64,000 nucleotides of DNA from a virus. Location of the stretch: IMG/VR virus record IMGVR_UViG_3300033571_002949, positions 21,913 to 85,912 of that record. One strand, 5' to 3'. This document shows, piece after piece, positions 16,298 to 47,145 of this stretch. The notes beneath the pieces were generated by a model. The model saw nothing but the letters and a program-made list of their open reading frames with translations. It was not told the DNA's origin and did not search any database. Positions within the stretch are counted from its first letter, which is position 1. Each line of letters begins with the position of its first letter. The translations under genes were made by a program, and so were the position numbers.

Positions 16298-18655
16298 ATG
16301 GCATATCAAATCAATTATTCAGACCCATTAAACAATGAACCGTTAATTGTAGAAGACGGCGCAGAAAATAATTCTACAAGCCTTGTTTTTGTAGGTAGAA
16401 ACAAAACAGGATATGCTCAAGCCATATCAGAAAATTTTCTTCATTTGTTAGAAAATTTTGCCAGCGGTACCGCACCAGTTAATCCTACACAAGGACAGTT
16501 ATGGTATGATACTAGTATAGGTGTTAATCAACTTAAAATTTGGGACGGCAGTAACTGGGGTGCCGCAGGTGGTCTTAAAAAAGGATCAAATGAACCTGAT
16601 GTAAGTTCTAGTGTTGTCGGTGACTTATGGGTTAATACTGATACACAACAATTATATTTGTTCACTGGCTCAGGCTGGATTCTAGTTGGACCAAGATTTA
16701 GTTCTGGGTCTAGAACAGGAGCAGAACCAGAAGTTATCATAGACACGTTAAATACTCCGCAAAACGTTGTAAGCCAATATGTAGAAGGCGAACGTGTGAT
16801 GATTATTAGCAAAACTGATTTTATACCTAAATCAGTTATACCTGGGTTTACAGAAATTAAAGCAGGTACTAATCTTAATAATCTATACAGCACTTATTAC
16901 GGAACAGCAGATAAAACTACTAAGTTAGTGGTTTCGGGATACCCAAATGGATTAGATGCTAATAGTTTTGTAAGAAAAGACATAGAACAAAACACACAAG
17001 GTGCATTAAATGTTCGTAATGCAGGTGGTGTTAGCGTAGGCACTGATGCACAATTTACAATGAATCTGGACGGAGCAACTGGTGTAATTCGCCATAAGAC
17101 TTCCGGAGCCAGTATTGATATTCGTGTTAACAATAACAACAGTGTATCTACAGTTATTCGAGTTGATGCTAACGAACGTGTTGGTATTAGAAAATTAAAT
17201 CCTCAAGAAGCATTAGATGTTACTGGTAATATTTTAGCCAGCGGTACAATTAAAACAACTGATACAACAGAATCTACAACTAGCGGCACTGGTAGTGCTG
17301 TGTTTGCCGGCGGAGTAGGCATTGCAAAAAATTTAAATGTTGGCGGTAATTTAATTGTAAGCAGTAACTTGCTTCCTGATGAACAAAATGGTGCAGATAT
17401 AGGCACTGTAGATTTGCGATTTGAAAACATTTATGCTTCGACAATAGATGTAGCAAATGAATTTGTTGGTGATTTACGAGGAAACGTTATTGGTAATATT
17501 ACCGGTAATGCACAAGGATCCGCTAGTAAATTGGCAAGTTCTACAATCTTTGAATTAACCGGTGACGTTACTAGTAGTGCTGTTGAGTTTGACGGACAAG
17601 TTGGTACACCTACAGTAGCCACATTAACAGCATCTGGCGACGGTACAACAGCCACACTTACTTTTGCAACACAGACTATTCCTCCTTATCCGGTTGGATC
17701 TACTATTGTTGTTTCTAGTATTGTGCCAACAGGATATCGCGGAACATTTATTGTTACAGGTGCTACAGCAAATAGCGTTAGTTACGCAAACACTACTACA
17801 GGTGCGCAAACTACAGCAGGACAAGTGGCACCATTGGCTCCTGTAGGAAATAGAAAAACATTCTTTACTAGACTTAGTGAAACTTTTATTTCAAGTAAAC
17901 CCGCTGTAACTGAAATAGCAGAAAACGATCAATTATTGCTAAGTCGCGGCGCAGAAGGTTTAAAAAGAATTTCAAAATCAGATTTCTTTAATGCTATTCC
18001 AGGTATGCCAGTTGGCGCAGTTATGCCTTACGCTGGACCAGTTGCTCCGGGTGGTTGGTTAGTGTGTGACGGTAGCGAAGTTAAAACTGCTGACTATGAA
18101 ACATTGTTTAGTGTTATAGGCTATACCTACGGTGATCCAGCAACATTATTAGGTCTAGGAACATTTAAATTACCTGACTTACGTGGTCGATTTGCTCTAG
18201 GTCTTGATAACATGACTAGTGGAATCACAGTACCGCAAGGTCCGGGAAGCGGACCGGGCTGGGATCCAAATAACCAAATTACTACGGGCGGTGGACCTGC
18301 TAATCGAGTAACAGATGTACAAGCCGACATTGATTATGCTAATCCGTTCTCAGCAAGAATTGGTGGCGGAGATGAGGACAGAACATTGGCTGTTAATAAT
18401 CTTCCAGATCACGAACACGATTTAAGAGGCAATGCAGGCAATCCTTATTATGCTTATAGAAATAATTCCGGAACGCCTCCAGATACAGATGCTATTTCGG
18501 GTACGGGTAATCCACCAGAAGATTCGGGTCTAGGACAATATCTAGGAACCAGTGGCGGCATTTTAACAAGCCCACCGGGCACATTCAGTCAAGCAGCCTT
18601 GAATGTTATGAACCCGTATTTGGCTATGAATTATATTATCTATACCGGAGCATAA
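16298..18655 (+). CDS. Tail fibre protein with tail-collar domain (fibre paralog 1)
   Basis: 785 residues. The first ~115 residues form a module shared with the next two genes (NENFLHLLENFA-type segment, then GQLWYD and GDLWVNTDTQQLY). The middle carries fibre-shaft sequence (ALDVTGNILASGTI, FAGGVGIAKNLNVGGN). Residues ~570-640 are a phage tail-collar domain: PVGAVMPYAG, GGWLVCDGS, YGDP and LPDLRGRFALG. The end has NNLPDHEHDL and a small-residue-rich tip. Tail-collar proteins such as T4 gp12 form trimeric short fibres at the baseplate that bind the host surface. The shared N-terminal module is probably the baseplate-docking part and the distal end the receptor-binding part (inference). Confidence 0.85.
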   Translation: MAYQINYSDPLNNEPLIVEDGAENNSTSLVFVGRNKTGYAQAISENFLHLLENFASGTAPVNPTQGQLWYDTSIGVNQLKIWDGSNWGAAGGLKKGSNEPDVSSSVVGDLWVNTDTQQLYLFTGSGWILVGPRFSSGSRTGAEPEVIIDTLNTPQNVVSQYVEGERVMIISKTDFIPKSVIPGFTEIKAGTNLNNLYSTYYGTADKTTKLVVSGYPNGLDANSFVRKDIEQNTQGALNVRNAGGVSVGTDAQFTMNLDGATGVIRHKTSGASIDIRVNNNNSVSTVIRVDANERVGIRKLNPQEALDVTGNILASGTIKTTDTTESTTSGTGSAVFAGGVGIAKNLNVGGNLIVSSNLLPDEQNGADIGTVDLRFENIYASTIDVANEFVGDLRGNVIGNITGNAQGSASKLASSTIFELTGDVTSSAVEFDGQVGTPTVATLTASGDGTTATLTFATQTIPPYPVGSTIVVSSIVPTGYRGTFIVTGATANSVSYANTTTGAQTTAGQVAPLAPVGNRKTFFTRLSETFISSKPAVTEIAENDQLLLSRGAEGLKRISKSDFFNAIPGMPVGAVMPYAGPVAPGGWLVCDGSEVKTADYETLFSVIGYTYGDPATLLGLGTFKLPDLRGRFALGLDNMTSGITVPQGPGSGPGWDPNNQITTGGGPANRVTDVQADIDYANPFSARIGGGDEDRTLAVNNLPDHEHDLRGNAGNPYYAYRNNSGTPPDTDAISGTGNPPEDSGLGQYLGTSGGILTSPPGTFSQAALNVMNPYLAMNYIIYTGA

Positions 18656-25736: not shown

Positions 25737-26629
25737 AAATAAGAATAGCAGAACAAGATATCATTTATCTCAGTTACGATGAACCCAATGCTGAGAAGAA
25801 TTATGCAGATTTATTACACAAAGTACCTTGGGCTAAACGTGTACATGGAGTTAAAGGCAGCGATGCCGCACACAAAGCCTGTGCCGCATTAAGCGACACA
25901 GAATATTTTGTCACAGTTGACGGTGACAATGTTATTGATTCTGAATTTATTAACGTAGAAATCGATTTAGATGAATTAGGGCTTGATGAAAGTTATGTAT
26001 TCAGTTGGTGCGGTAAAGTTAACGTTAACGGATTAATGTATGGCAACGGCGGCCTTAAGTTATGGACTCGTAAATTTGTTAACAACATGCGTACACATGA
26101 AAATTCTGACCCTGCTGATACTAAAGGTCTAGTAGAATTTTGTTTTGATGACAAATATTATCAATTCAATACTAATTATTCTACTAGCGTTATTAATGGC
26201 AGTGCTTTCCAAGCCTTCCGTGCAGGATTTCGAGAAGGCGTAAAGATGAGTTTAAATCAAGGAGCCAAAGTTAGTAACATTAAAGACGTGTGGTGGCAAA
26301 ATTATCAACGTCTTTTAATCTGGTCTACGGTTGGCAGTGATGTGGAATATGGAGATTGGGCTATATATGGTGCTCGAGAAGGTTGCTACTTGACTAATTG
26401 TACAGACTGGGACTATGCCAATGTTCGTGATTTTGAATACCTTACAGAACAGTGGAAAGAAAAATACAGTAAAATTACTGAGGAAATGTTACCATATGAA
26501 ATTACAGGACTTGGTGTAACACTAAAAGAAGAATTAGGTTTAGAAATAGCAGACCTAGATAAACATGGCAGTAAATTTTTTAGAACAGTATATCAAAATA
26601 CTCCAAGAATAATTGGAAGAAAACTATGA
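25733..26629 (+). CDS. GT-A glycosyltransferase-like protein (paralog of the gene at 37204)
   Basis: 298 residues. Near the N-terminus, IIYLSYDEPNAEKNYADLL and PWAKRVHGVKGSDAAHKAC lead to EYFVTVDGDNVID, a D-x-D-type motif as in GT-A nucleotide-diphospho-sugar transferases. The centre has KVNVNGLMYGNGGLKLWTR and the end has the general feature of a Trp/Tyr-rich acceptor region. The gene at 37204 has the same YGEPNAE, AKRV and VDGDAEV layout. It overlaps the following radical SAM gene by ATGA. Substrates are unknown. Confidence 0.65.
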   Translation: MKIRIAEQDIIYLSYDEPNAEKNYADLLHKVPWAKRVHGVKGSDAAHKACAALSDTEYFVTVDGDNVIDSEFINVEIDLDELGLDESYVFSWCGKVNVNGLMYGNGGLKLWTRKFVNNMRTHENSDPADTKGLVEFCFDDKYYQFNTNYSTSVINGSAFQAFRAGFREGVKMSLNQGAKVSNIKDVWWQNYQRLLIWSTVGSDVEYGDWAIYGAREGCYLTNCTDWDYANVRDFEYLTEQWKEKYSKITEEMLPYEITGLGVTLKEELGLEIADLDKHGSKFFRTVYQNTPRIIGRKL

Positions 26630-28041
26630 TCACTAGCAAGTTAGAATATTGGCCTAAGATTAAAGATCAACTAGATCAAGTAGGACCTGGATTTTGTTTG
26701 GCAAAATGGAATCAAGTAACAATTCATCTAGCCACAGGTCATACACATAGTTGTCATCATCCTAACACACATAAGATTCCTCTGCAAGAAATTGCCGCGG
26801 ACCCTAGTGCATTACATAATACTCTATTCAAGAAACAACAACGCCAACGTATGTTAGACGGTGAACGTCCAGAAGAATGTAGTTATTGCTGGAATGTTGA
26901 GGATAATGTTAAAGAAGCACATATATTCAGTGACCGTGTACAAAAAAGTGCAGAATCTTGGAGTCAGAATTTTGAAGAAGTGCTGGCTGCTGGCGCAGAA
27001 AATTTTAATCCTACCTATGTTGAAGTTAGTTTTAGTAATGTTTGCAATTTTAAATGTTCGTATTGTTCACCAGAAGTATCTAGCAAATGGATGGAGGAGA
27101 TAGAACAATATGGGGCTTATCCAACTAGCAACAAATTTAATAATATCGAATGGTTAAAAAGCATTGACAAAATGCCTATACCTAACAAAGACTATAATCC
27201 TTATGTTAATGCGTTTTGGCACTGGTGGCCCGAGTTATATAAGACTCTAAAAGTGTTCCGTATTACTGGCGGCGAACCTTTATTAAGCAAAGATACGTTT
27301 AAAGTTTTAGATCATATCATAGAAAACCCTCGTCCTGAACTTGAACTAATGATTAACAGTAATCTCTGCATACCGGATGAATTGTTTAATAAGTTTGTAG
27401 AAAAGATGAAACGTATTCAAGGCGAAGGCATGATCAAAGACTTTACCTTGTTTACTAGTTGCGAAGCACACGGCGAGCGAGCAGAATATATTCGCAACGG
27501 TTTAAATTATAACAAATGGTTAGATAATTGTTATACGTACTTGGACAAAGTACCAAATGGTCGTTTAGGTATAATGAGCACCTATAATATTTTAAGTGTT
27601 ACAAGTTACATGCCATTTATGAAAGACTTGTTAACACTAAACAAAACCTTTAATCATTATAAGGATAGAGTACATCCATTAATTTTTGATATTCCATACT
27701 TACGTTATCCAGAACATCTTAGTATGACTATCCTTACACCTGATTATCTTAAACAAGTCGAAGAACAAGTAACGTTTATGTATCAGAACCGTCAAACAGC
27801 AGATTGGCAACCTCTTGCTGGCAACGGTTTTTATGATTGGGAATGTAAAAAGTTAGAACGTGTTTATCATTTGCTAGAAAGCACTTTCAAAGTTGGCGAG
27901 CATCTACAACCAAGCACTGTAAATAAACGCAAAGATTTTGTACGTTTTGTTGACGAGCATGACCGTCGTCGTGGTACAAATTTCTTACAAACCTTTCCAG
28001 AAATGGAAGAGTTCTACAACCTATGCAAGTCTTTAACATGA
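26626..28041 (+). CDS. Radical SAM protein (1 of 8) with extra N-terminal cysteines
   Basis: 471 residues. The CxxxCxxC cluster motif for the SAM-bound 4Fe-4S centre is at C140, C144 and C147 (VCNFKCSYCSPE). ITGGEPLL, the SAM-binding GGEP motif, lies about 85 residues later. N-terminal SCHHPN and CSYCWNVED resemble the auxiliary-cluster (twitch/SPASM-type) segments that precede the radical SAM core in the phage proteins at 57959 and 60257. Such enzymes perform radical chemistry on sugars, cofactors or peptides; the substrate is not evident. It is embedded between a glycosyltransferase and a phosphodiesterase-like gene. Confidence 0.8.
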   Translation: MITSKLEYWPKIKDQLDQVGPGFCLAKWNQVTIHLATGHTHSCHHPNTHKIPLQEIAADPSALHNTLFKKQQRQRMLDGERPEECSYCWNVEDNVKEAHIFSDRVQKSAESWSQNFEEVLAAGAENFNPTYVEVSFSNVCNFKCSYCSPEVSSKWMEEIEQYGAYPTSNKFNNIEWLKSIDKMPIPNKDYNPYVNAFWHWWPELYKTLKVFRITGGEPLLSKDTFKVLDHIIENPRPELELMINSNLCIPDELFNKFVEKMKRIQGEGMIKDFTLFTSCEAHGERAEYIRNGLNYNKWLDNCYTYLDKVPNGRLGIMSTYNILSVTSYMPFMKDLLTLNKTFNHYKDRVHPLIFDIPYLRYPEHLSMTILTPDYLKQVEEQVTFMYQNRQTADWQPLAGNGFYDWECKKLERVYHLLESTFKVGEHLQPSTVNKRKDFVRFVDEHDRRRGTNFLQTFPEMEEFYNLCKSLT

Positions 28042-28469
28042 AATATATTAGTCATAGAGGAAATTTAAAAGGTCCTGAACCTGAATTAGAAAATGAGCCA
28101 GGGTACATTCAGGACGCTTTAGATGCTGGATTTGATGTAGAAGTTGATGTTTGGTATGTAGATGAAAAATTTATGCTAGGGCATGACGCACCTATATATG
28201 ATGTAACCAAAAACTTTTTATTAGATAGTAGACTTTGGTGTCATGCTAAAACTCCCGAAGCATTAACAGCCATGTTAACAGCCGGAATTCATTGCTTTTG
28301 GCATGAAAATGATGAAAGAACTTTAACTAGTCAGGGATTTATATGGACATATCCACACAAAAAATTAGTTGATCGTTCAGTAGTTGTAATTTTAGACAAG
28401 GAATTAAATCATGAGTATGTCTCACGAGCAGTTGCAGTCTGCGGTGACTACGTTCAATCCTGGCGCTAA
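28038..28469 (+). CDS. Glycerophosphodiester phosphodiesterase-like protein (short)
   Basis: 143 residues from the ATG at 28038, which overlaps the preceding stop as ATGA. KYISHRGNLKG is the HRG motif at the start of GDPD-type TIM barrels, followed by GFDVEVDVWYVDEKFMLGHD, where the E/D pair and GHD motif carry the metal- and phosphate-binding residues, and then by WCHAKTPEAL. The protein has only about 60% of the usual GDPD length, so it may be a minimal form. The product would cleave glycerophosphodiesters or a related sugar phosphodiester. Its 3' end overlaps the next gene by 59 bases. Confidence 0.6.
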   Translation: MKYISHRGNLKGPEPELENEPGYIQDALDAGFDVEVDVWYVDEKFMLGHDAPIYDVTKNFLLDSRLWCHAKTPEALTAMLTAGIHCFWHENDERTLTSQGFIWTYPHKKLVDRSVVVILDKELNHEYVSRAVAVCGDYVQSWR

Positions 28470-29220
28470 TAAAATTGCTATCTGTTTTAGTGGACAAATT
28501 CGCACATGGCGTCGATGCATAGACACATGGATTCATCTTTTAGAACATAATGGTTCTAGAGATAACATAGATGTTTTTTGTCATTTTTGGGATTTTAATA
28601 CGGTACCAAACTCTGTGCCAGATCATCCTAAAGTATCTGCCAAGGTGGATACTGAAGAAATAAAAGAACTAATAGACATTTTAAAACCTAAAAAATATAT
28701 AATTGATTTTGCGCGAGAGTTCCCACTGTTTGATAAAAATCAAGCAATTACACACGGACCGTTTGTTAGTCAATTTTACGGAATCATGAAAGCGGCAAAT
28801 TTAAAACGTCAGTATGAGATTGAAAATCGCATGATGTATAAAGGTGTAGTACGTGCAAGGTATGACGCATACTATACTCACAATGTAACTGAGTTTTATA
28901 AAAATATTGCTCCTAATACTATGCACGGGTTTCATATGGGATGGAATCCTGATAACTTTAGAGGGCGTATGGGAGATATTTTTTGGATTGCAGACAGTGA
29001 CACTTATGATCTTATAGCAGACTACTATATCAATCTAGGCTACATGAATAAGAAATGGTTCACTGCTGATCAAACAGATGCCACTCCGGAATGGGTATTT
29101 TTTCATTACATTAAAAAGAATAATATCGATATACAAAATAATCATTGGGATATTAAACTAATGAGAGAAAACGCAGAACTTAGTTTTGCCAAGAAGGAGG
29201 GCGGCTTTGAAGTCTGGTAA
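28411..29220 (+). CDS. Glycosyltransferase-like protein (paralog of the next gene)
   Basis: 269 residues. NKIAICFSGQIRTWRRCID and NIDVFCHFWDFN at the start, then FVSQFYGIMKAANLKRQYE and GVVRARYDAYY, are seen in a family of putative glycosyltransferases of phages and giant viruses (KIAICxSGxxRT signature). The next gene has the same layout (KIAICISGMLRT, YDIFYHTW). The start is supported by AAGGAA 7 bases upstream, in spite of the 59-base overlap with the GDPD-like gene. Function as a transferase is inferred from the family resemblance. Confidence 0.6.
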   Translation: MSMSHEQLQSAVTTFNPGANKIAICFSGQIRTWRRCIDTWIHLLEHNGSRDNIDVFCHFWDFNTVPNSVPDHPKVSAKVDTEEIKELIDILKPKKYIIDFAREFPLFDKNQAITHGPFVSQFYGIMKAANLKRQYEIENRMMYKGVVRARYDAYYTHNVTEFYKNIAPNTMHGFHMGWNPDNFRGRMGDIFWIADSDTYDLIADYYINLGYMNKKWFTADQTDATPEWVFFHYIKKNNIDIQNNHWDIKLMRENAELSFAKKEGGFEVW

Positions 29221-29941
29221 GATTGCTATCTGTATTAGCGGAATGCTACGAACAGGAATTCAAGCGTATCCTGTGTTTCGTAATTTTTTTGATTCTCTTG
29301 GCGAGTATGATATTTTTTATCATACCTGGAAGTTAGACTCATCAATATCTAATTTGTTAAAAACAACTTACAAACCTACAAGATTTTTAGAAGAAGATCC
29401 GCTTAATAATACTAAAGAAAGTTCGTTTGGTAGTATGTTATACAGTATAATGATGGCCAATGAACTTAAAAAACAATATGAGATTGAAAATAATTTCAGA
29501 TATGATCTTGTAATTAAAACAAGGTTTGATCTTGTTTTTCCTAAGACTATTAAATTTCCTGTTGATGAAAATATATGGCCTAGAACAATTTATAGTGTAA
29601 ACGGAAATTGTGGTATAAATCATACTGATTATGAAAATCACGGTATTAGTGATGTAATATTTTGGGGAGATAGCCAAAGTATGGACCTGGCAACTAATAT
29701 TTACAGGCATTATAAGTACACTACCTTAGTTAAAGACATGTATTTGAGGGACGGCTGGAAAATGGATGTAAAAGATTACTATCTAAGTCCAGGTACTATG
29801 ATTTATCAACGCACAGTTAAACAAAATATAGCACATGTTAGATTGCCGTCTATTGGAGAAGTTCCGTGGAGGGACGATGTTGCTGAGTTAGATCCAGTTA
29901 AAGATTACGATAAAATAAGAGAGAGATATGCAAAAGGTTAA
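29207..29941 (+). CDS. Glycosyltransferase-like protein, TTG start (paralog of the preceding gene)
   Basis: 244 residues if it starts at the TTG at 29207. AAGGAGG at 29194-29200 is 6 bases upstream, and KIAICISGMLRTG then lines up with the N-terminus of its paralog. The earlier in-frame TTG at 29186 lacks such a site. MANELKKQYEIENNFRYDL and VIKTRFDLVFP match the corresponding region of the paralog. The two genes probably arose by tandem duplication. It overlaps the following SGNH hydrolase by 14 bases. Confidence 0.6.
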   Translation: MKSGKIAICISGMLRTGIQAYPVFRNFFDSLGEYDIFYHTWKLDSSISNLLKTTYKPTRFLEEDPLNNTKESSFGSMLYSIMMANELKKQYEIENNFRYDLVIKTRFDLVFPKTIKFPVDENIWPRTIYSVNGNCGINHTDYENHGISDVIFWGDSQSMDLATNIYRHYKYTTLVKDMYLRDGWKMDVKDYYLSPGTMIYQRTVKQNIAHVRLPSIGEVPWRDDVAELDPVKDYDKIRERYAKG

Positions 29942-31513: not shown

Positions 31514-32196
31514 AATTAGTGTATGCTAACGGTGATAGTTGGACGCATGGTGACGAATTATCTGCGTTCGATGACATAGATCAAACTTCTGTTCGATATT
31601 ATAATTCTTGGCCGTGGAAATTATCTCAAATTTTAGACATTCCGGTATGTGTTAATGATGCACAAGGTGGCACAGGTAATTTACGTATTTTTCGTAGAAC
31701 TAACGAATTTATATATAGATGGATTGGTTCAGGAAAATCTGTCAGTGATTTATTAGTAGTAGTAGGATGGTCTACGCCCGAGCGTACAGAAATTGGTGAA
31801 GGAAAAGGAATATATCCAATACAGATTCAGGGTCCTTTGTATTTTACAGATTTACCACGTGATGATGTTTCTTTAGAAAACTATCATAAAGCATATTACG
31901 AAATATATTCAGACAGTTACGGAGAAAACTTAACAGCACTATATATGATGAATTTAAGAATGTTGTGCCAGGGATTAGGAATAAAATATTTTGATTTTGT
32001 TGCTATAGGTAATCAACCTCAGCATTGGCAAGACTATATGAAATCAAAGTGGAATATAGAATTAACAAATATGTATATGAAAAGTACCTGGAGTGCTGAA
32101 GTTTATAATAATAAATGGAGTAAACATAAGCACGGACATCCTACTAAAGAAACTCATGAACTATGGGCTAACATTTTAGCCAAGGAAATACAATGA
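31510..32196 (+). CDS. SGNH/GDSL hydrolase-like protein (3 of 4), GTG start
   Basis: 228 residues, starting with GTG that overlaps the previous stop. LVYANGDSWTHGDEL is the GDS block, QGGTGNLRIFRRT the Gly/Asn region, and KHGHPTKETHELWANIL the C-terminal His region. It is closest in layout to the gene at 29928 (GDSW, then LVVVGWSTPERTE versus FVVIGFTSPERKD). The ATG of the NTP-transferase overlaps its stop. Confidence 0.65.
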   Translation: MKLVYANGDSWTHGDELSAFDDIDQTSVRYYNSWPWKLSQILDIPVCVNDAQGGTGNLRIFRRTNEFIYRWIGSGKSVSDLLVVVGWSTPERTEIGEGKGIYPIQIQGPLYFTDLPRDDVSLENYHKAYYEIYSDSYGENLTALYMMNLRMLCQGLGIKYFDFVAIGNQPQHWQDYMKSKWNIELTNMYMKSTWSAEVYNNKWSKHKHGHPTKETHELWANILAKEIQ

Positions 32197-32915
32197 ACAT
32201 AATAATTGGACTATGCGGCCAAGGAAACCGATTTAAACAAGTAGGTTACGAATTGCCTAAATATCTTATTACGTATCATGGAGCACCAATGATTTATCAT
32301 AGTGTAGAAACTATAGGTATTAGAGGTAGAATACATTTTGTAGTAAGGAAAGAACATTTAGAACAATTTAATTTTTTAGAAAAAATGTTGTTAGGGTTAG
32401 GAGACGAAATCATAACCATAAATGGTAACACACAAGGTGCCGCAGAAAGTTTATTATATACTAAGCCTTATATCAAAGATTTAAATGCTCCTATGCTTAG
32501 TGTAAATGGTGACCAATTTATGGATTGGAAATCTTATCAATTTCAAGATGAAATACAACGGAATCCTGAAACAAGTTATATTGTAACTTACAACGAAACT
32601 AGCCCTAAATGCAGTTATGTTCGAGAGGATCAAGATCGTGTTGTTGAAGTAAGAGAGAAACAAGTTATTAGTAACGACGCAACTACGGGGTATTATCATT
32701 GGGCTCACACACATGATTTTTTTCAAGATGCTGAACAAATGATTAAAGAAGGACACAAAGAAAACGGAGAGTTTTATGTTGCTCCAGTTTATAATTATAC
32801 TATTGCTAGAGGAAAAACAGTAAAAAAGTTTTCTATAAGTAATAAAGAGTTTTATCCAGTAGGCACTCCCGACGATTTAACAAAATTTCAAAGACTAAGC
32901 ACAAGGTTTGATTAA
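32193..32915 (+). CDS. Nucleotidyltransferase (NDP-sugar pyrophosphorylase-like)
   Basis: 240 residues. IIIGLCGQGNRFKQVGYELP followed by KYLI is the G-x-G-x-R-F plus P-K signature of NTP-transferases that condense NTP with a sugar 1-phosphate. GNTQGAAESLLYTKPYI is the base-binding region and MLSVNGDQFMDW holds the D expected to bind Mg2+. YPVGTPDDL near the end is the usual closing motif. It begins a block of six genes (to 37204) that could make and activate a sugar or cyclitol phosphate. The nucleotide and the sugar are not predictable. Confidence 0.75.
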   Translation: MNIIIGLCGQGNRFKQVGYELPKYLITYHGAPMIYHSVETIGIRGRIHFVVRKEHLEQFNFLEKMLLGLGDEIITINGNTQGAAESLLYTKPYIKDLNAPMLSVNGDQFMDWKSYQFQDEIQRNPETSYIVTYNETSPKCSYVREDQDRVVEVREKQVISNDATTGYYHWAHTHDFFQDAEQMIKEGHKENGEFYVAPVYNYTIARGKTVKKFSISNKEFYPVGTPDDLTKFQRLSTRFD

Positions 32916-33250
32916 TGAAAAAAGCACACATTGATAACTTTATTAAAGGATGGTTCGTTGGAAATTTTGAACCTAGCCTACTTAAAGAAAATTTTGAAGT
33001 TGGTTTCCATCAGCACAAAGCAGGCGATTTTCATCAAGATCATTTTCATAAACACAGTACTGAAATTAACTTAGTAGTAGAGGGCAAAGTCAAAATAAAC
33101 GGAGAAGTATTTAGGGCAGGTGACATCTTTGTTTTGGAGCCTTACGAAATTAGCCAATGCGAATATCTTACAGATGTTAAATTAGTTGTAGTACGGAATC
33201 TAAGCGACCCTAATGATAAGTTTGAAGTCCAAATAGTTGACAAAAAATAA
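32915..33250 (+). CDS. Small cupin-domain protein
   Basis: 111 residues forming one cupin barrel. FHQDHFHKHSTEINLVVEGK contains the histidine- and glutamate-rich metal-binding cupin motif 1, and GDIFVLEPYEISQCEYLTD is motif 2. Cupins of this size are often sugar isomerases/epimerases or metal-dependent lyases in nucleotide-sugar pathways. It overlaps the NTP-transferase stop as TAATG and precedes the RuBisCO-like gene, which supports a part in the same small-molecule pathway. The reaction is unknown. Confidence 0.65.
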   Translation: MKKAHIDNFIKGWFVGNFEPSLLKENFEVGFHQHKAGDFHQDHFHKHSTEINLVVEGKVKINGEVFRAGDIFVLEPYEISQCEYLTDVKLVVVRNLSDPNDKFEVQIVDKK

Positions 33251-33281
33251 AAAATACTTTACAATAACAGAAAGGAAAAGT

Positions 33282-34514
33282 ATGAAATTTTTTCGAGAAC
33301 TAACTCAAACAGAAAAAGATCGTTGTGTTATTGCAACATATTATATTGAAACGTATTCTGACATAGGAGATTTACGCGATGCCGCTTGGAATCTTGCTAT
33401 AGGTCAAAGTGTTGGAAATCCAAAAATACGAAATCAGTGGGAAACTGATGAATTGTTTGAAAGGTCATCCTGTGTGATTTATCACAATGAATCAGAATTA
33501 ACAGGCAAGCATAGTGGCACAATTAAGATTGGATTTCCTAAAATAAACTCCGATTGGCAAGGGGATGGCATCAGTCATCTTATGTGTCAATTAATGGGCG
33601 GCCAGATGGATATTAATGTGTTTAAAGCCTGCAGATTAAAACACATTGAGTTTCCTAAAGATGTCGAACAGCAATTTTTAGGACCTCGACAAGGTATTAC
33701 GGGTATTAGAAAATTTGTTAATCGCTATGACAAACCTCTGTCAGGAGCCATTGTAAAACCTAAAACTGGCATTAGTCCTGCTACTCTAGCAGACATGGTT
33801 AAAGAATTAATAGACGGCGGTGTAGATTTTATCAAGGAAGACGAGATATTGTCTAACCCTAGTTTTTGTCGTTTAGAGGATCGTGTTGAATTAATTTCTA
33901 ACATTGTTAATAATTGCGGTCGTGGAGTTATCTATTGCTTCTGTATTAATGGCGATCATCATACTATTCTTGACCGTGCTAAGTTTGTAGCCAACAATGG
34001 CGGTAACGGTATTCACATTAATTTCTGGAGCGGTCTAGGAGTTTATAATTCAATACGCAGATTAGATTTTCCATTGTTTATTCATTACCAGAAGAGTGGT
34101 GATAAGATTCTTACAGACAAACGCAACCCGTTTGGTATTGATTGGTCAGTACTGTGTGACCTTGCTGGACTATGCGGTGTAGATACTATTCATGCGGGCA
34201 TGTGGGGAGGCTATTTAAGTGACAACGAAGATGAACTTAAATACACCATGGAAACTCTGCATAAACGAAATGTTCTTCCTGCACTAAGTTGTGGCATGCA
34301 TCCTGGGATTGTTAATCCAACAGCAGAAAAATTTGGTACTGATTTTCTTGCTAACTGCGGCGGCGCTATACACGGGCACCCAGACGGTACTCTAGCCGGA
34401 GCATTAGCCATGCGTCAGGCCATTGACAAAACTCCTGGAAAAGAGTTTTTGACAGCAATAGAAAAATGGGGCTATGTAGGCGGTTCCTTACCCGAGTGGG
34501 TATTAGATTTTTAA
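33282..34514 (+). CDS. RuBisCO-like protein (form IV, RLP)
   Basis: 410 residues from the ATG at 33282, chosen because AAGGAAA lies 5-6 bases before it. The metal-binding set of RuBisCO is intact: FIKEDE gives the carbamylatable Lys185 plus Asp187 and Glu188. VKPKTGIS keeps the Lys159/Lys161 pair; His268 and His304 (DTIHAG) align with His294 and His327 of plant RuBisCO; SCGMH and CGGAIHGHPDG are the phosphate-binding parts. The loop-6 lysine (Lys334 in plants) is missing: AGMWGGYL stands in place of the usual SGTVVGKLEG. This excludes a normal carboxylase. Known RLPs act as enolases, isomerases or decarboxylases on phosphorylated keto-sugars or keto-acids. Its neighbours suggest a sugar or cyclitol phosphate substrate (inference). 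Confidence 0.85.
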   Translation: MKFFRELTQTEKDRCVIATYYIETYSDIGDLRDAAWNLAIGQSVGNPKIRNQWETDELFERSSCVIYHNESELTGKHSGTIKIGFPKINSDWQGDGISHLMCQLMGGQMDINVFKACRLKHIEFPKDVEQQFLGPRQGITGIRKFVNRYDKPLSGAIVKPKTGISPATLADMVKELIDGGVDFIKEDEILSNPSFCRLEDRVELISNIVNNCGRGVIYCFCINGDHHTILDRAKFVANNGGNGIHINFWSGLGVYNSIRRLDFPLFIHYQKSGDKILTDKRNPFGIDWSVLCDLAGLCGVDTIHAGMWGGYLSDNEDELKYTMETLHKRNVLPALSCGMHPGIVNPTAEKFGTDFLANCGGAIHGHPDGTLAGALAMRQAIDKTPGKEFLTAIEKWGYVGGSLPEWVLDF

Positions 34515-34515
34515 T

Positions 34516-35475
34516 ATGGATATAATTGAACTAAAAGGCGGTAGTTTAAATTCAACTTGTTTATATGTTGACGGTGATCGCAAATTTGTAAGAAAAACTA
34601 TTTCGACTACTGCCGATAGAGAATACGGCTATGTACGTTGGTACAGTCAATTAAAAAAATTACAAAGATTTAATCAGATAATTCCCCAGCACGTTCCTCG
34701 AGTTCTGGATGCTGGTGTGTGTGATAAAGGTGCATATTTTGACATTGAATATATTGATGCTAAAGATATTAAAACACTGTTTAAAGAAAATTTACTAGAT
34801 GCCCACCAGACTGAAAAAATGCATCAACAGTTGTGGCAAGCGTTTGATACTTTACATCAACACACTTATCAACCAAACATTAGTAGTTTAAAACTTTATT
34901 TTCAGGAAGAAGTTTTACAAAAAATTAATGATGCTAGACAGTTTTCAGAGTTTGAAAACTTTTATCAAATGGATGTCTATGTACATTGGGGAGAAACATT
35001 TAGTGGTATTAAACATAAATTAGAACAATTATCTAAGTTGTTTGATCAAGTTATAACTACAGAAAGTTACGTACACGGAAATCCAACGCTAGAAAATATT
35101 CTTTACAGCGAAGAAACAGGTATAGTGTTTATTGACTTATATGAAGAAGGTATTGTAGACAGCAAGTTTATGGACTATAGTCAGATACTACAATGTAGTA
35201 GCAGTTACTACGGTATTCTTAATGACAGTGTGATACGTGTAAAAGGAAACGTTACAGGATTCGACACTAAGTTTCCAAAAAATTTATTGTACTTCGATAA
35301 ACTGTTTAATGAAGAATTAGAGCGTAGATTTACAAATCAGGAATATTTGTTGATAAGATTATTTGAAGCCACACAGTTTTTTCGTATGTTGCCGTTTAAA
35401 TGTCACGCTGGAAACATAGAAGCGGCAAAGTTTTTTTATGCTCATGCTTGCGCTCTCGTAAATAAACTATTATGA
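34516..35475 (+). CDS. Aminoglycoside phosphotransferase-fold protein with altered catalytic residue
   Basis: 319 residues. The N-terminal half carries FVRKTIS (nucleotide-binding Lys) and YFDIEYIDAKDIKTLF (hinge), and the C-terminal half YVHGNPTLENILY then VFIDLYEE. This is the Brenner-type HGDxxxxN and ID layout of APH/choline kinases, but the catalytic Asp is Asn189 (codon AAT). Asn194 and the metal Asp207 are kept. The change could mean a weak or non-kinase function, or a different base. It lies 1 base after the RuBisCO-like gene and overlaps the cyclase, so a part in the same pathway is likely. Confidence 0.7.
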   Translation: MDIIELKGGSLNSTCLYVDGDRKFVRKTISTTADREYGYVRWYSQLKKLQRFNQIIPQHVPRVLDAGVCDKGAYFDIEYIDAKDIKTLFKENLLDAHQTEKMHQQLWQAFDTLHQHTYQPNISSLKLYFQEEVLQKINDARQFSEFENFYQMDVYVHWGETFSGIKHKLEQLSKLFDQVITTESYVHGNPTLENILYSEETGIVFIDLYEEGIVDSKFMDYSQILQCSSSYYGILNDSVIRVKGNVTGFDTKFPKNLLYFDKLFNEELERRFTNQEYLLIRLFEATQFFRMLPFKCHAGNIEAAKFFYAHACALVNKLL

Positions 35476-36533
35476 CATGGCGTGTAAAGACTACCCTTCC
35501 TGTAGAGTTTGATATAGTCAAAGTACCTAATGCATTGGATTGGGACATAATTCCCGGTCAGCGTAGAATAGCCGTGGTTGATGAAACAGTCTATGCTTTG
35601 TACAAAGACAAAATTCCCGCTGGCACAGAGATTTTTACAGTACGCAGTACAGAATCTGAAAAAGATTGGAAAAACGCCGAACGTGTTTTACAGTTTTTTC
35701 AAGATATAAAATTACTACGGAGAGAAACGGTTATTGCTGTAGGCGGTGGAGTTCTTTTAGACTTAGTAGGATTTTGTTGCAGTATATATCGTAGAGGTGT
35801 TCCTTATGTTAGAATACCAACTACACTATTGGCTATTGTTGATGCTAGTGTAGGTGCAAAAACAAGCATTAATCATTTTGGGTTTAGAAATAGAATTGGT
35901 AGTTTTTATCCACCGACATTGACATTAATTGATAAGTCTTTTATTAAAACACAAGATCACAGAGAAATATCAAACGGCATGGCAGAAATTTTAAAGTTAG
36001 CCATAGTTCTTGATTATCAATTATTTGAATTAATTGAACTTAATCCGCAGGAATTACTAAGACTTAAATTTCAAAATTATGTGTTAGCAGATAAAATAAT
36101 TGATCGTGCAATTTCGGGTATGACTGAAGAACTGAATGATAATCTTTGGGAACGAGACTTACAGCGTCCTGTAGATTTTGGACATACATTTAGTCCTATG
36201 GTTGAAATGAAAAATGTTCCTAATTTGTTACATGGTGAAGCAGTAATGTTAGATTGTCTTTTAAGTGCTTGTATTAGTAATTTAAGAGGATATATCAGCA
36301 ACGATCATTTACACCGTATTTTTAAAACTGTTCGCAGTTGTGACTTGCCTACAGAACACAAAGATTTTTATAATGTTGACCTGCTGTGGGCAGGTTTACA
36401 AGATGTAATGAACCATCGCAATGGTAATCAATATATACCTGTTCCTATAAGTATTGGCCGTTGCGAAATTATCAATGACGTAACACGCAGTGAAATAGAA
36501 CAGGCCTGCGACCGAATGAGAAGTATGCAATGA
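35472..36533 (+). CDS. Sugar phosphate cyclase (DHQS/EEVS superfamily)
   Basis: 353 residues, the normal size. IAVGGGVLLDLVGF is the NAD-binding GGG motif; PYVRIPTTLLAIVDASVGAK follows; the Zn ligands are Glu172 (NGMAEILKLA), His238 (DFGHTF) and His254 (LLHGEAV). This is the 3-dehydroquinate synthase superfamily. PYVRIPTTL and FRNRIGSF are more like the 2-epi-5-epi-valiolone synthase branch than the KNMIG pattern of true DHQS, so the substrate is more likely a sugar phosphate that is cyclised to a cyclitol. There is no other shikimate gene in the window, which also argues against an aromatic amino acid role. The exact branch needs a tree. Confidence 0.85.
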   Translation: MTWRVKTTLPVEFDIVKVPNALDWDIIPGQRRIAVVDETVYALYKDKIPAGTEIFTVRSTESEKDWKNAERVLQFFQDIKLLRRETVIAVGGGVLLDLVGFCCSIYRRGVPYVRIPTTLLAIVDASVGAKTSINHFGFRNRIGSFYPPTLTLIDKSFIKTQDHREISNGMAEILKLAIVLDYQLFELIELNPQELLRLKFQNYVLADKIIDRAISGMTEELNDNLWERDLQRPVDFGHTFSPMVEMKNVPNLLHGEAVMLDCLLSACISNLRGYISNDHLHRIFKTVRSCDLPTEHKDFYNVDLLWAGLQDVMNHRNGNQYIPVPISIGRCEIINDVTRSEIEQACDRMRSMQ

Positions 36534-37204
36534 AAACAGTATTAATTACAGGTTCTAGTCGAGGGCTAGGTAAAGCACTGACAGAAACATTTTTACAAAA
36601 TGGATGGAAAGTTGTTGGAGTTAGTAGAACAGATTTAAAGAGTTATGACAACTATACACACATAGTTGCTGATGTGGCTAATATTGGCCAAGTCCATACT
36701 GCATTTGATCTACTTAAAAAAACTAAAACTAAAATTGATGTGTTAATAAACAATACGGCTGCTTTTCATATGGGCGACTTTGCAGATTCAAAATATTTTG
36801 ATATTGCGAATGTTATTGATACTAATGTAAAAGGCACAATGTATGTGACTAATCAAGCGTTAACAATAATGGAGCCAGGTTCAAAAGTTGTTTTTGTTAA
36901 CAGTGTAGCAGGACTAAGAGAAATTCAACATCAGAGCATTTACTGTGCCAGCAAGGCTGCTTTAAAAAGTTTTGCCGGAGTGTTAGGCCAAGAACTTAGA
37001 CAGAGGGGTATAAAAGTATCTAGTATACATCCAGGCGGCATTAACACAACCTTATGGAATGAAAATAATCCATATCCTTGCGGTGATGTTACTAACGCTT
37101 TAGATCCACACCATCTTTCAGAAATGATCTATCGCATCTCGTCTGATACTAGTAATACTGAATACAAAACTATAACAATGTTTCCTGAAGTGGAGTGGCA
37201 CTAA
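36530..37204 (+). CDS. Short-chain dehydrogenase/reductase (SDR)
   Basis: 224 residues. TGSSRGLG at residues 7-14 is the classical TGxxxGxG cofactor motif, LINNTA is the NNAG-like motif, and Ser125, Tyr138 and Lys142 (YCASK) form the catalytic set. It is a little shorter than the usual 250. It overlaps the cyclase by ATGA and the next gene by TAATG. Beside a cyclase it could oxidise or reduce a ring hydroxyl of the cyclitol, for example to the ketone required by an aminotransferase (inference). Confidence 0.85.
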   Translation: MKTVLITGSSRGLGKALTETFLQNGWKVVGVSRTDLKSYDNYTHIVADVANIGQVHTAFDLLKKTKTKIDVLINNTAAFHMGDFADSKYFDIANVIDTNVKGTMYVTNQALTIMEPGSKVVFVNSVAGLREIQHQSIYCASKAALKSFAGVLGQELRQRGIKVSSIHPGGINTTLWNENNPYPCGDVTNALDPHHLSEMIYRISSDTSNTEYKTITMFPEVEWH

Positions 37205-37899
37205 TGTACGACATAGTGTTTATCAGTTACGGTGAGCCTAATGCAGAAGCCAATTGGGAACGATTAAAAAATAGATATCCCTTGGCTAAACGTGTTACCA
37301 ATGTGGCAGGAATTCATCAAGCACATATTGCCGCGGCTAAAAAAGCCTTTACTAAAATGGTTTGGGTAGTGGATGGCGATGCAGAGGTATTACCTACATT
37401 TAATTTTGACTACGAAGTTAGCGAATGGGATTTAGATGTAGTACATGTATGGCGCAGTCGTAATCCTATAAATGATTTAGAATACGGGTACGGCGGAGTA
37501 AAACTATTGCCACGTAAGTTAACGCTGGATATGGATATTTCTAAACCAGACATGACTACCAGTATTAGTACAAAATTTAAAGCAATGGCTGAAGTTAGTA
37601 ATATTACTGCTTTTAACACTGATCCGTTTAATACTTGGAAGAGTGCGTTTCGCGAGTGCGTTAAGTTAGCCAGTAAAGTTATAGATGGACAAGTTGACAC
37701 TGAAACTGAGCATAGGTTATTAGAGTGGTGTACCCCACACGTAGATAGATTGCACGGTAACTGGGCGTTTCTTGGCGCAGAGGATGGCAAAATGTACGGC
37801 ATGCAAAAGGCCGGAGATTTAAAAGCACTAGGTAAAATAAATGATTTTGAATGGCTACGACAATTCTTTTCAAGATATCCCGTTCCACCAAATAGTTAA
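37204..37899 (+). CDS. GT-A glycosyltransferase-like protein (paralog of the gene at 25733)
   Basis: 231 residues from the ATG at 37204 that overlaps the previous TAA. YDIVFISYGEPNAEANWERL, PLAKRVTNVAGIHQAH and MVWVVDGDAEVL repeat the organisation of the gene at 25733, including the D-x-D-type motif; YGYGGVKLLPRKL matches its YGNGGLKLWTR. It is shorter at the C-terminus. It may transfer the product of the preceding cyclase block onto an acceptor, but this is inferred only from position. Confidence 0.6.
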   Translation: MYDIVFISYGEPNAEANWERLKNRYPLAKRVTNVAGIHQAHIAAAKKAFTKMVWVVDGDAEVLPTFNFDYEVSEWDLDVVHVWRSRNPINDLEYGYGGVKLLPRKLTLDMDISKPDMTTSISTKFKAMAEVSNITAFNTDPFNTWKSAFRECVKLASKVIDGQVDTETEHRLLEWCTPHVDRLHGNWAFLGAEDGKMYGMQKAGDLKALGKINDFEWLRQFFSRYPVPPNS

Positions 37900-38839
37900 A
37901 TTTGGTCAACGCACTATGCTTGAACGACCTTTGTTCAACGTAAGTTGGATACTAGGTCGTTTTTGTAATTATAATTGTAGTTACTGCTGGCCCTATGCTA
38001 GAAGTGATAAATTGGATCATCTAGATTATGAAACTTATACAAACACCGTTGACGAAATAAAACGTCAGGCACGTGAACAAGGCTTCACTGATTTTCATTG
38101 GAGTTTTAGTGGCGGCGAACCTACAGCATATAAACGATTATTAGATTTAGTTAAACATTTAGACGATGGAGTAAAATCTCCTTATCAAAGTATCCACATG
38201 ACTACTAATCTTAGTCCAGGAAGTAAGTGGTGGGGCACCTGGTGTAAAAATACTGAGATGCTACAACGCAGAAGTTTAACAGCCAGTTTCCATACAGAAT
38301 TTGCACGTGAACAAGAATTTGGAGACAAATGTCTACAATTAAATTACGAAGGTGTTCATGTAACAGTAAATCAGGTAATGGTTCCAGAATTGTTCTGGGA
38401 CACCTATGCACGATGCGAACGTCTATACAAACGAGGTATAAATGTAACACTAAAACCTCAAAGCGATCCTACGGCTAGTTTTGTAGTCAGTGGTTACGAT
38501 GACAAAATGTTAGAGGTTATGCAAACAGGATTTCCGCAATTATCGAGTGGCGAGCAGTTGTATCAGGTAGCATTATTTGACGAGTTAGGGCACGAATATT
38601 TGTTTGATCAAGCCGAAAGATTTAACGCATTTGGTTTTAACAAATTTCAAAATTGGACTTGCAATGCTGGCTATCAAAGTGTTATAATAAGAAGCAACGA
38701 AGTTAAACGTAGTTATAGTTGTCACGATGAATCATTAGGAACTTTGATAAGCGGATTTAAATTATTTGACAGTCCTAAAAAATGTATAACTCCAACTTGT
38801 GTTAGTTCGGCAGATAGTAAAATACCAAAAATAAAATGA
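37841..38839 (+). CDS. Radical SAM protein (2 of 8)
   Basis: 332 residues from 37841, where it overlaps the preceding gene by 59 bases; an ATG at 37916 would avoid the overlap and is an alternative start. The cluster motif RFCNYNCSYCWPY gives C42, C46 and C49, and WSFSGGEPTAYKRL is the SAM-binding GGEP. Later TCNAGYQSVI and YSCHDESLG with CITPTC near the end could bind a second cluster. It resembles the proteins at 57018 and 61509 in size and layout. Substrate unknown. Confidence 0.8.
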   Translation: MILNGYDNSFQDIPFHQIVKFGQRTMLERPLFNVSWILGRFCNYNCSYCWPYARSDKLDHLDYETYTNTVDEIKRQAREQGFTDFHWSFSGGEPTAYKRLLDLVKHLDDGVKSPYQSIHMTTNLSPGSKWWGTWCKNTEMLQRRSLTASFHTEFAREQEFGDKCLQLNYEGVHVTVNQVMVPELFWDTYARCERLYKRGINVTLKPQSDPTASFVVSGYDDKMLEVMQTGFPQLSSGEQLYQVALFDELGHEYLFDQAERFNAFGFNKFQNWTCNAGYQSVIIRSNEVKRSYSCHDESLGTLISGFKLFDSPKKCITPTCVSSADSKIPKIK

Positions 38840-44855: not shown

Positions 44856-46156
44856 AATATAACTGCATTGTTTTTAAACGTAGAAAGATTTTTTAAATTA
44901 TGTTCTAAAACTGGTTTAATTTTATCATATAATTCTTTGAGATCCTCGATGCTATAACTATCGATATGGTCAATGAGTTTTAAAATTTTTTCCATGCGGC
45001 GTGAGTGATTAATCTCTGTATCATAACTTTCGTCCCAGACCTCGCCAAAAGTTTTAAAACCCATTAGTTTTAAATATTCTAAAGTGCGTGGAGGAGCAAC
45101 TAACACAAAAGGTCGCATAGCTCTAATTGCGTTTATTGTTTTTTCACTGAACAATCCAGTATCCTGAGTAAACCGAGATTCTGTAACTACTGCACAAAAA
45201 CATTGAGCATAAAATTCAATAGGTAATGGATGGGTCCAGTCGGGACTTTTAACACTCGGTTTACTGATTTGTTCAGATGATAAATTTACAATCTCGCCGG
45301 GTATATCAATGCTAAACGGACCTTTTTGATTTAAATATTTGTTGCCGTTTACTAGTTCATTTTTTTTAAAATCTAACTCAAACCACAATGCTGATAAAAA
45401 CTCCTCGGTAGACACGTTATAATTCCAACTAATTAAAGAAGATCGCTGACAAAGATATGCGGCAATTATATTTCTAAATGACGTGTACCTCCAATTTGCA
45501 GACCAAAATTTATACTTGATTTCATCACTGCTAAAATTGGTTCGTATAGGATCAGTATTTTCATTAAACAACGATTGGATAAAAATATCTTTACAAAAAA
45601 TTTTAAATTCTTTATATTGATTTGAAAATTTTTCTCTACAATAATAATCGCATGTAAAGACAGAAACATTTGTTAATTTATTTTTAATAACAAACTCTTT
45701 AATCGATTCAAATTCATAACAGAATAATATTTCACTGTTATCTTTTTCTGAAAAAACTTCTTTAGCAGATTTATTACCTCGATGATAATTGACCGGATCA
45801 ATGTAAAATCGGTCATCGGAGTTATTAGTAAATGATAATATTTCGTACAGATATATTTCTAAACCTGTTTGATTAAGTTTTTCAATAACTTTGCTATCTA
45901 GTTCTAACGATTCTAACTGCGGTATATTGCCTATACCTGTGTATATCATGTGTGGCTTTGATATTTTTTCTATAAAGGTACCAGTATATAAATCTTGATA
46001 ATAATCAAAAAAAGTATATTTTTCTGATTGTTGATCGGATCTAAATATCTCTCCGTTTTGAAGAATTAAAATAGGGTCAGAGAACAACTTTTGATACAAA
46101 ACACAAAAGTAATGATCGTTTCGAGTATCAAAAGTTTTTCCCGACAATGGTCTCAT
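44852..46156 (-). CDS. Glycosyltransferase-like protein (paralog of the gene at 43545)
   Basis: 434 residues. KYKFWSANWRYTSFRNIIAA, VVTESRFTQDTGLFSEKTIN, MRPFVLVAPPRTLEYLKLMG and FKTFGEVWDESYD match its downstream neighbour segment by segment, with the two genes overlapping as ATGA. Divergence is substantial in the first half, so the duplication is old and the two may use different donors or acceptors. Upstream it overlaps the amidinotransferase gene by 4 bases, tying transfer to synthesis. Confidence 0.6.
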   Translation of the reverse strand: MRPLSGKTFDTRNDHYFCVLYQKLFSDPILILQNGEIFRSDQQSEKYTFFDYYQDLYTGTFIEKISKPHMIYTGIGNIPQLESLELDSKVIEKLNQTGLEIYLYEILSFTNNSDDRFYIDPVNYHRGNKSAKEVFSEKDNSEILFCYEFESIKEFVIKNKLTNVSVFTCDYYCREKFSNQYKEFKIFCKDIFIQSLFNENTDPIRTNFSSDEIKYKFWSANWRYTSFRNIIAAYLCQRSSLISWNYNVSTEEFLSALWFELDFKKNELVNGNKYLNQKGPFSIDIPGEIVNLSSEQISKPSVKSPDWTHPLPIEFYAQCFCAVVTESRFTQDTGLFSEKTINAIRAMRPFVLVAPPRTLEYLKLMGFKTFGEVWDESYDTEINHSRRMEKILKLIDHIDSYSIEDLKELYDKIKPVLEHNLKNLSTFKNNAVIL

Positions 46157-47145
46157 TTATGATCCCTAGCAATGTCGAGGGTTACGCAATGAAATCCGCC
46201 ACCTAAGGTCCTTTGTTGTCGTCCAGGTAGCATAGCACACTCTATTTTATATTTGGCCAATTCTTTTCTTAGAGGTTCTTGTACATTGGGCAGTGCTACT
46301 AGATTAGGATTAATACTAAACAAATTTACATTCATCCACTTACTAGCATTACAATAACCGGGATAATGACCTACATCGACAGCATCATCGACAAAAATGG
46401 CATCCCAACTTTGTAAAGGTTTAGGCAATTGATCTTTGCTCTTAATTCGACTCCCGTTTAACAGCATTAGTCCTTCTCTTAACAATGCTATAGTACTGTC
46501 TATGTGCATATAACTGTAAACACCTTCAACTAGCCATACTTTTTTTGACGGTCCTACTAATTCTTGTAGATACTCTGCACCTTTCTTATTAGCACTGTTA
46601 CTGACTAGATAATATAAGTTATCGTTATCTTTTAAAACATTTGCCGCATCAAAGCAAGGTTCTATTTCTGTTAGTGCTAAAATGTCTTTGTCTCCTAGAC
46701 ACTTTTCATTATATAACGCATCGGATTTTTCCGCCGCTGCCTGTATGTAACGTACTCCGTTTTTAGCAAATCTTTGAAAATGTGCGTCCATACTACGCCA
46801 CTCTCCTTCTCTCGCTCTTAGGGGTTGTGGAGTTGCTAATATTAAATCGTCGTAGACTATGACATTATCGCGAGGACAATAGTTATAATAGTTTGGTTCA
46901 AAATTAGAATCGGGTCTAAGAACCTCAACACCTTCCCCTTTTAAAAATTTACAAAATTCTTCTAAATCTTCGTTGGCTTCGTCTATAACTTGTTGCGGAT
47001 ATCTACCCTGAGGAATTTTACTTTCGTCTGTGTAGTCAGCATAGTTTACGCATCTTAGACTTTTATCTAGAGATGGTATTTTAGCATCGTCGGCAATGCC
47101 AACGATTACAGTTTTTAAAGGATCCCATTCGTTTTTACTTAACAT
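46153..47145 (-). CDS. Amidinotransferase (StrB1/AGAT family), complete triad
   Basis: 330 residues, near the size of StrB1 and AGAT core domains. The catalytic triad is visible: Asp166 (CFDAANVLK), His214 (SYMHIDSTIALL) and Cys320 (GGGFHCVTLDI). Spacings of 48 and 106 residues agree with StrB1, arginine:scyllo-inosamine-4-phosphate amidinotransferase of streptomycin biosynthesis. These enzymes transfer the amidino group of arginine to an amine, making a guanidino group. A DegT-type aminotransferase is 1.8 kb upstream in the same run, which could supply the amine. A glycine acceptor cannot be excluded. Confidence 0.8.
   Translation of the reverse strand: MLSKNEWDPLKTVIVGIADDAKIPSLDKSLRCVNYADYTDESKIPQGRYPQQVIDEANEDLEEFCKFLKGEGVEVLRPDSNFEPNYYNYCPRDNVIVYDDLILATPQPLRAREGEWRSMDAHFQRFAKNGVRYIQAAAEKSDALYNEKCLGDKDILALTEIEPCFDAANVLKDNDNLYYLVSNSANKKGAEYLQELVGPSKKVWLVEGVYSYMHIDSTIALLREGLMLLNGSRIKSKDQLPKPLQSWDAIFVDDAVDVGHYPGYCNASKWMNVNLFSINPNLVALPNVQEPLRKELAKYKIECAMLPGRQQRTLGGGFHCVTLDIARDHK

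Follow-up and report, generated by a model that had tools for sequence, protein, structure and literature searches.

The window analysed here, a 64,000-nt stretch of DNA (bases 21,913-85,912 of the 85,912-base virus record IMGVR_UViG_3300033571_002949), carries six consecutive genes, for an NTP-transferase, a small cupin, a RuBisCO-like protein (RLP), a kinase, a sugar phosphate cyclase and an SDR oxidoreductase. Judged by gene content, gene order and phylogeny, this block is two joined modules: an NTP-transferase/cupin/RLP core, which is present in many uncultured phages, and a kinase/cyclase/SDR module. A sequence-only reading of the window had proposed that the six enzymes jointly make and activate a cyclised sugar; that proposal is not supported, since the RLP core is a module of its own and RLPs have been exchanged beside the cyclase. 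Our own reading, to which we give a probability of about 0.5, is that the RLP would be a ketose-phosphate isomerase or epimerase that fixes no CO2 and feeds the synthesis of a nucleotide sugar, and that the second module would make a C7 cyclitol.

The block is carried by a T4-like phage. Genes for a portal, a head maturation protease, SbcC/SbcD-like subunits, a late sigma factor and a baseplate hub lie upstream of the window in the same record, and a tail collar-type fibre gene lies within it (16298-18655); the phage setting, which the sequence-only reading had also asserted, is therefore sound.

An RLP core that stands apart from the cyclase module

With the window RLP as the query, 237 relatives were found in viral contigs (loci are numbered with the prefix L), and a scan with an RLP profile gave 347 matching stretches on such contigs; no relative turned up in the 50,697 named phage records. 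In the best 80 of the 237 viral loci, the RLP was accompanied by an NTP-transferase in 78, a cupin in 67 and a GDPD-like protein in 64; the kinase, the cyclase and the SDR were each found in 8. These lists, including the best 80 of 446 cupin relatives used below, were ranked by likeness to the window, and their proportions therefore lean towards window-like loci. The NTP-transferase lay at most four genes from the RLP in 61 of 62 distinct loci; L028 has no NTP-transferase. In genome contigs, a single scan found 22 cellular RLP loci, among them Pelagibacteraceae, Patescibacteria, Azospirillum, Elusimicrobia, Legionella and archaea. An NTP-transferase was found in 20 of these, a GDPD-like protein in 15, a cupin in six and a cyclase in none, some of the loci having themselves been rows of the profiles used for the counts; the two without an NTP-transferase, L088 and L103, lie on short contigs (3.1 and 3.7 kb). 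By gene content, an NTP-transferase with an RLP, usually joined by a cupin or a GDPD-like protein, is an independent module.

The cyclase was present in 52 of 288 viral loci (repeats of the same contigs included), and only three of these 52 were without an RLP (L106, L108 and L198), on contigs that start after the RLP position. Kinase, cyclase and SDR were seen together only beside the core, these three cut contigs excepted. Other viral contigs have the same six genes in the same order, with proteins 44-97% identical to those of the window; this answers in the affirmative a question that the sequence-only reading had raised, namely whether these genes stay together in related phages. One cassette of the six-gene type lacks the SDR (L340), and several other contigs end inside the block.

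Within cyclase cassettes, the RLP slot holds either the window type (85-100% identical to the window RLP) or a remote type (44-49%), and the other block genes of the remote-type cassettes are 51-79% identical to those of the window. In the RLP tree, the cyclase-linked RLPs fall into two deep groups, the window type adjoining the cyclase-free L003 and L013. In the cyclase tree, by comparison, L011, which has a window-type RLP, is the partner of L197, which has a remote-type one (support 95/98), and L008/L009 stand with L201/L205 (86/98). On the evidence of these identities and trees, the RLP has been replaced in place within cyclase cassettes. As the nearest tree neighbours of the window RLP are cyclase-free, a cyclase-free module is suggested as the donor. 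Furthermore, mainly because RLPs have been exchanged in this way, the RLP probably does not use the product of the cyclase. One remote-type RLP (L203:4947-6030) is split over two open reading frames (ORFs), with the other cassette genes present, through a break or a sequencing error.

The phage RLPs form a clade of their own

By phylogeny and conserved residues, the phage RLPs form their own RLP clade. In a quick tree, 40 clade rows, of which 22 were viral and the other 18 came from the 22 cellular loci, were split by one branch, with a support of 99, from 36 reference RuBisCOs and RLPs covering forms I, II and III and the OiaX-like, MtnW-like and DeepYkr-like groups, some of the references being named by their NCBIfam or PDB hits. 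Profile scores in this set were at least 318 bits inside the clade and at most 207 outside it. A second tree, rooted on form III with four references only and without the long-branched L102 and L087, gave a weak group of eleven cellular rows (81/46) and, beside it, 34 mostly viral rows (98/93) of which a Patescibacteria row branches first. This tree is compatible with an origin in cells and later spread among viruses, without proving it.

Across 95 distinct viral RLPs, K175, K177, K201, D203, E204 and S379 are conserved in all; N123 is replaced by G and K334 by Y, also in all, and the H327 position holds H in 85 and Q in 10. We take N123 and the loop-6 residue K334 to be carboxylase residues, and K201, D203 and E204 to be the metal site. 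With K334 and N123 gone and the references across the branch, the clade falls outside forms I-III, the carboxylating RuBisCOs, and the window RLP probably does not fix CO2; as a RuBisCO homolog with an intact metal site and lost carboxylase residues, it belongs by sequence to form IV. The known form IV RLPs (OiaX, MtnW/YkrW, DeepYkr and Photo) share with it the superfamily, the K201/D203/E204 metal site and the loss of the carboxylase residues. However, the phage clade differs from them in lying on its own side of the branch, in keeping K177, in having Y at 334 and G at 123, in its nucleotide-sugar gene partners and in occurring mostly on viral contigs in these scans. It also stays below the NCBIfam cut-offs for OiaX (151.5 bits for the window RLP, cut-off 700) and MtnW (123.5, cut-off 513.6).

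The idea that the clade is a common SAR11 gene was rejected, as it was found in two of 197 genomes of the order, both already among the 22 cellular loci. One of the loci labelled as cellular, L082 (a Crocinitomicaceae metagenome-assembled genome), has an RLP identical to that of the viral L044, and its contig may be of viral origin and wrongly binned. A viral contig of 518,643 bases (L056) also carries an RLP, together with a cupin and an NTP-transferase. As for neighbours, a LicD gene lies upstream in each of the two Legionella loci tested, Wzy_C and Glycos_transf_4 genes lie near the SAR11 RLP of L084, and a Polysacc_synt gene lies near that of L087.

The cyclase belongs to the sedoheptulose-7-phosphate branch

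Scores, tree and motif support placing the cyclase in the sedoheptulose-7-phosphate (EEVS/DDGS) branch and not with AroB. The sequence-only reading had called the enzyme EEVS/DHQS-type and would have been refuted by a place among true 3-dehydroquinate synthases together with a lack of conserved co-occurrence, neither of which was observed. Against the PDB it scored 262 bits with 4p53 (ValA, a 2-epi-5-epi-valiolone synthase) and 146 bits with the best-scoring 3-dehydroquinate synthase, 6lk2. The closest named proteins are the sedoheptulose 7-phosphate cyclases of Streptomyces clavuligerus and Rhizobium rhizogenes (40% identity). In the cyclase tree, a branch with a support of 100 unites the viral cyclases and six sedoheptulose-7-phosphate cyclases to the exclusion of all 30 AroB-like rows; these 30 were only the best among matches in 203 of 249 genomes of one phylum, and one of them, a fragment of 47 residues, has a very long branch. 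The narrower grouping of the viral cyclases with ValA and the S. clavuligerus row has a support of only 83 in a quick tree. The motif GH[ST]FSP is common to the viral cyclases, ValA and the Streptomyces, Rhizobium and Agrobacterium rows, and the two DDGS-type rows have GHTWSP. AroB itself was rejected as an assignment: the TIGR01357 score of 215.2 bits is under the cut-off of 305, the window cyclase has GHTFSP and not a GHTFGHA-type motif, and it lies outside AroB in the tree. The phage cyclase shares both GH[ST]FSP and LHGEAV with the 2-epi-5-epi-valiolone synthases (ValA, 4p53), and differs from them in being phage-borne, in having an APH-like and not a ROK kinase beside it, and in being joined to an RLP module.

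RpiB in related phage modules

The Synechococcus phages Bellamy and SynMITS9220M01 contain homologs of the cupin. The Bellamy protein gp206 unites an NTP-transferase and RpiB (PF02502, 3.9e-32) in one fusion, and its neighbours are the cupin homolog, a PfkB-like protein (5.9e-05, below the Pfam cut-off) and a HAD protein (1.5e-04). The cupin, NTP-transferase, GDPD-like and glycosyltransferase-like genes of this module are homologous to those of the window; the module differs in its RpiB, PfkB-like and HAD proteins and in the absence of an RLP. Among the best 80 cupin loci, 62 had an RLP, 11 an RpiB domain and seven neither, and none of the 30 loci found in a scan with gp206 had an RLP. When the 288 viral loci were collapsed by one 60-base match each to 131 distinct ones, 95 contained an RLP, 28 RpiB, eight neither and none both. 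Phmmer queries of the 131 with the Bellamy HAD and PfkB proteins matched no RLP locus. A single ORF upstream of an NTP-RpiB fusion (L385:997-1983) combines GDPD-like and HAD domains.

Eleven RLP loci (L345, L348-L354, L359, L361 and L362) contain a phosphomannomutase-family HAD protein, encoded directly after the RLP in L349; these represent a further type of cassette.

Gene content of the block and its surroundings

Coordinates and families are given in Table 1. The six nearly gapless genes were found as the sequence-only reading had described them, and its family calls agree with Pfam throughout, the cupin only below the cut-off. The most likely start of the RLP is the ATG at 33282, which is preceded by gaaaggaaaagt and which leaves a 31-base gap after the cupin ORF; the other junctions are overlaps of 1 or 4 bases or gaps of a single base. 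The NTP-transferase family profile matched best 4evw ('Nucleoside-diphosphate-sugar pyrophosphorylase', 5.4e-35) in the PDB, and next GlmU and mannose-1-phosphate guanylyltransferase.

Table 1. Genes of the block and associated genes in the window.
Feature	Position	Strand	Basis
NTP-transferase, sugar-1-phosphate nucleotidylyltransferase type	32193-32915	+	PF00483 8.5e-08
Small cupin, core module	32915-33250	+	Pfam below cut-off (0.0021); recurs in RLP loci
RLP	33282 (ATG)-34514, ORF open from TTG 33237	+	PF00016 RuBisCO_large 2.5e-43
APH/fructosamine-kinase-like kinase, cyclase module	34516-35475	+	PF03881 Fructosamin_kin 7.8e-08; PF01636 APH 2e-06
Predicted sedoheptulose-7-phosphate cyclase, EEVS-like	35472-36533	+	DHQ_synthase 5.2e-37; DHQS_C 7.7e-23; tree, motif
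SDR oxidoreductase, cyclase module	36530-37204	+	PF00106 adh_short 9.3e-40
GDPD-like protein, 143 aa, partner of RLP core	28038-28469	+	Recurs in RLP loci; model
Probable GT-A-fold glycosyltransferase	29186-29941	+	Model pLDDT 81, Foldseek
Glycosyltransferase-like paralog	28411-29220	+	Same cluster as 29186-29941; homolog Bellamy gp208

As to the boundaries of the block, the six genes stand, and the GDPD-like gene, a frequent partner of the RLP, had been left out. Its product gave a model of high confidence (pLDDT 97) that could be superposed on GDPD structures over 134-139 residues with Z scores between 10.8 and 8.5, the highest being that of 1o1z (138 residues, root-mean-square deviation 3.1); with Foldseek alone, nothing reached E 0.001. 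At 143 residues, the modelled GDPD-type barrel is smaller than the matched GDPD chains (at least 218) and the listed designed TIM barrels (181-184).

Neither glycosyltransferase-like gene between 28411 and 29941 has a Pfam match. The modelled product of the second is probably a GT-A-fold glycosyltransferase: its best Foldseek match is the bacterial histo-blood-group glycosyltransferase 4ayl (E 3.5e-07, TM 0.49), and it resembles bacterial and mammalian alpha-1,3-Gal/GalNAc transferases (TM about 0.5). The island also contains radical SAM and SGNH-like genes and, by eye only, amidinotransferase-like ORFs at 46153-47145 and 54928-56142.

Proposed function and alternatives

From the families, clades, residues, gene order, RLP exchange and RpiB non-overlap seen in these sequences we infer a scheme in which the reactions, substrates, product and final target are all hypothetical. 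In it, the RLP would enolise a ketose phosphate at the RuBisCO metal site and release an isomer or epimer, with no CO2 fixed, and the cupin would work on the same small sugar phosphate. A separate mutase, or a kinase and phosphatase, would bring the phosphate to C1; the phosphomannomutase-family HAD of eleven RLP loci would make this shift. The NTP-transferase would then form a nucleotide sugar, and the glycosyltransferases of the island would transfer the activated sugar to a glycan, either of the virion or of the host surface. Kinase, cyclase and SDR would supply a second building block, of C7-cyclitol type, from sedoheptulose 7-phosphate; the cyclase would give 2-epi-5-epi-valiolone or one of its stereoisomers. 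We favour an isomerase or epimerase because of the RpiB non-overlap, the phosphomannomutase-family HAD and a precedent in Rhodopseudomonas palustris, where RLP1 is a sugar-phosphate 1,3-isomerase upstream of a cupin enzyme (PMC5893883).

Several observations weigh against this scheme. In the NTP-transferase tree the RpiB loci make a single group, with a support of just 3, and in the cupin tree they require two changes, so the RLP/RpiB non-overlap may represent only one or two events and is therefore suggestive, not a repeated experiment. One RLP locus, L365, has by Pfam a PfkB-family gene (1.9e-17), missed by the Bellamy query, and a CTP_transf_like gene. The cupin is absent from 13 of the best 80 viral and 16 of the 22 cellular RLP loci, so the core can do without it; none of the proposed steps clearly calls for the GDPD-like protein, and the kinase gave nothing against solved structures (best E 0.34). 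Finally, RLPs can alternatively be enolases or decarboxylases, such as MtnW and OiaX. The two L365 genes (L365:191-1310) lie upstream of HAD, NTP-transferase, cupin and RLP genes, and as a pair read like heptose activation. The window kinase also had no match among named phages.

A linear pathway, in which a C7 cyclitol from the cyclase would become an NDP-cyclitol through RLP, kinase, SDR, cupin and NTP-transferase, draws on the nearly gapless gene order and its conservation in relatives, on the rarity of cyclase loci without an RLP, and on the kinase and dehydrogenases that adjoin bacterial cyclases of the same group. We consider it unlikely, and have set a single six-gene pathway aside: no cyclase was detected in 72 of the best 80 viral and all 22 cellular RLP loci (some contigs being short), and the same slot is occupied by RLPs of two deep lineages. 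It is more doubtful still that the RLP is an OiaX-like enolase or decarboxylase whose product, a sugar either branched or shortened, would go into the glycan; the superfamily is the same and the metal site intact, but scores are far under the OiaX and MtnW cut-offs and K177 is conserved, unlike in six aligned OiaX-like and MtnW-like references. Salvage of methylthioadenosine or 5'-deoxyadenosine, for example in clearing by-products of the island's radical SAM enzymes, seems very improbable. Radical SAM-family genes do lie at 26626-28041 and 37841-38839, with further ones recognised by eye, but the clade is distinct from the MtnW-like L135 and the DeepYkr-like L129 and L140, and its commonest partners are sugar-nucleotide genes. 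PDB 3qfw is the R. palustris enzyme. The known Rhodopseudomonas RLP with a cupin partner does act in salvage (PMC5893883).

Relation to known RuBisCO homologs and significance

The Global Ocean Sampling survey described marine RuBisCO homologs outside the known forms, with N123 among their poorly conserved residues and with neither hosts nor gene neighbours given in the description (Yooseph et al., 2007; PMC1821046); the phage clade likewise lies outside the known forms and has lost N123. Sequences of that survey define an RLP clade named IV-GOS. A search of open PubMed Central by title and abstract, which does not cover closed papers and preprints, found no paper on a phage RLP, and the available part of PMC12663927 does not mention phages or viruses. 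More tentatively than for the cassette itself, we suggest that the RLP clade of uncultured phages may consist of sugar-phosphate isomerases for nucleotide sugars, replacing RpiB with its kinase and phosphatase, and that part of the orphan oceanic RuBisCO homologs may be this clade.

If true, this would give the RuBisCO fold a new role and, within the reach of these searches, make this the first RLP clade linked to phages. Orphan aquatic RLPs could then be seen in their gene neighbourhoods and tried against a few candidate substrates, and phages would be adding the chemistry of rare sugars and cyclitols to their glycan islands.

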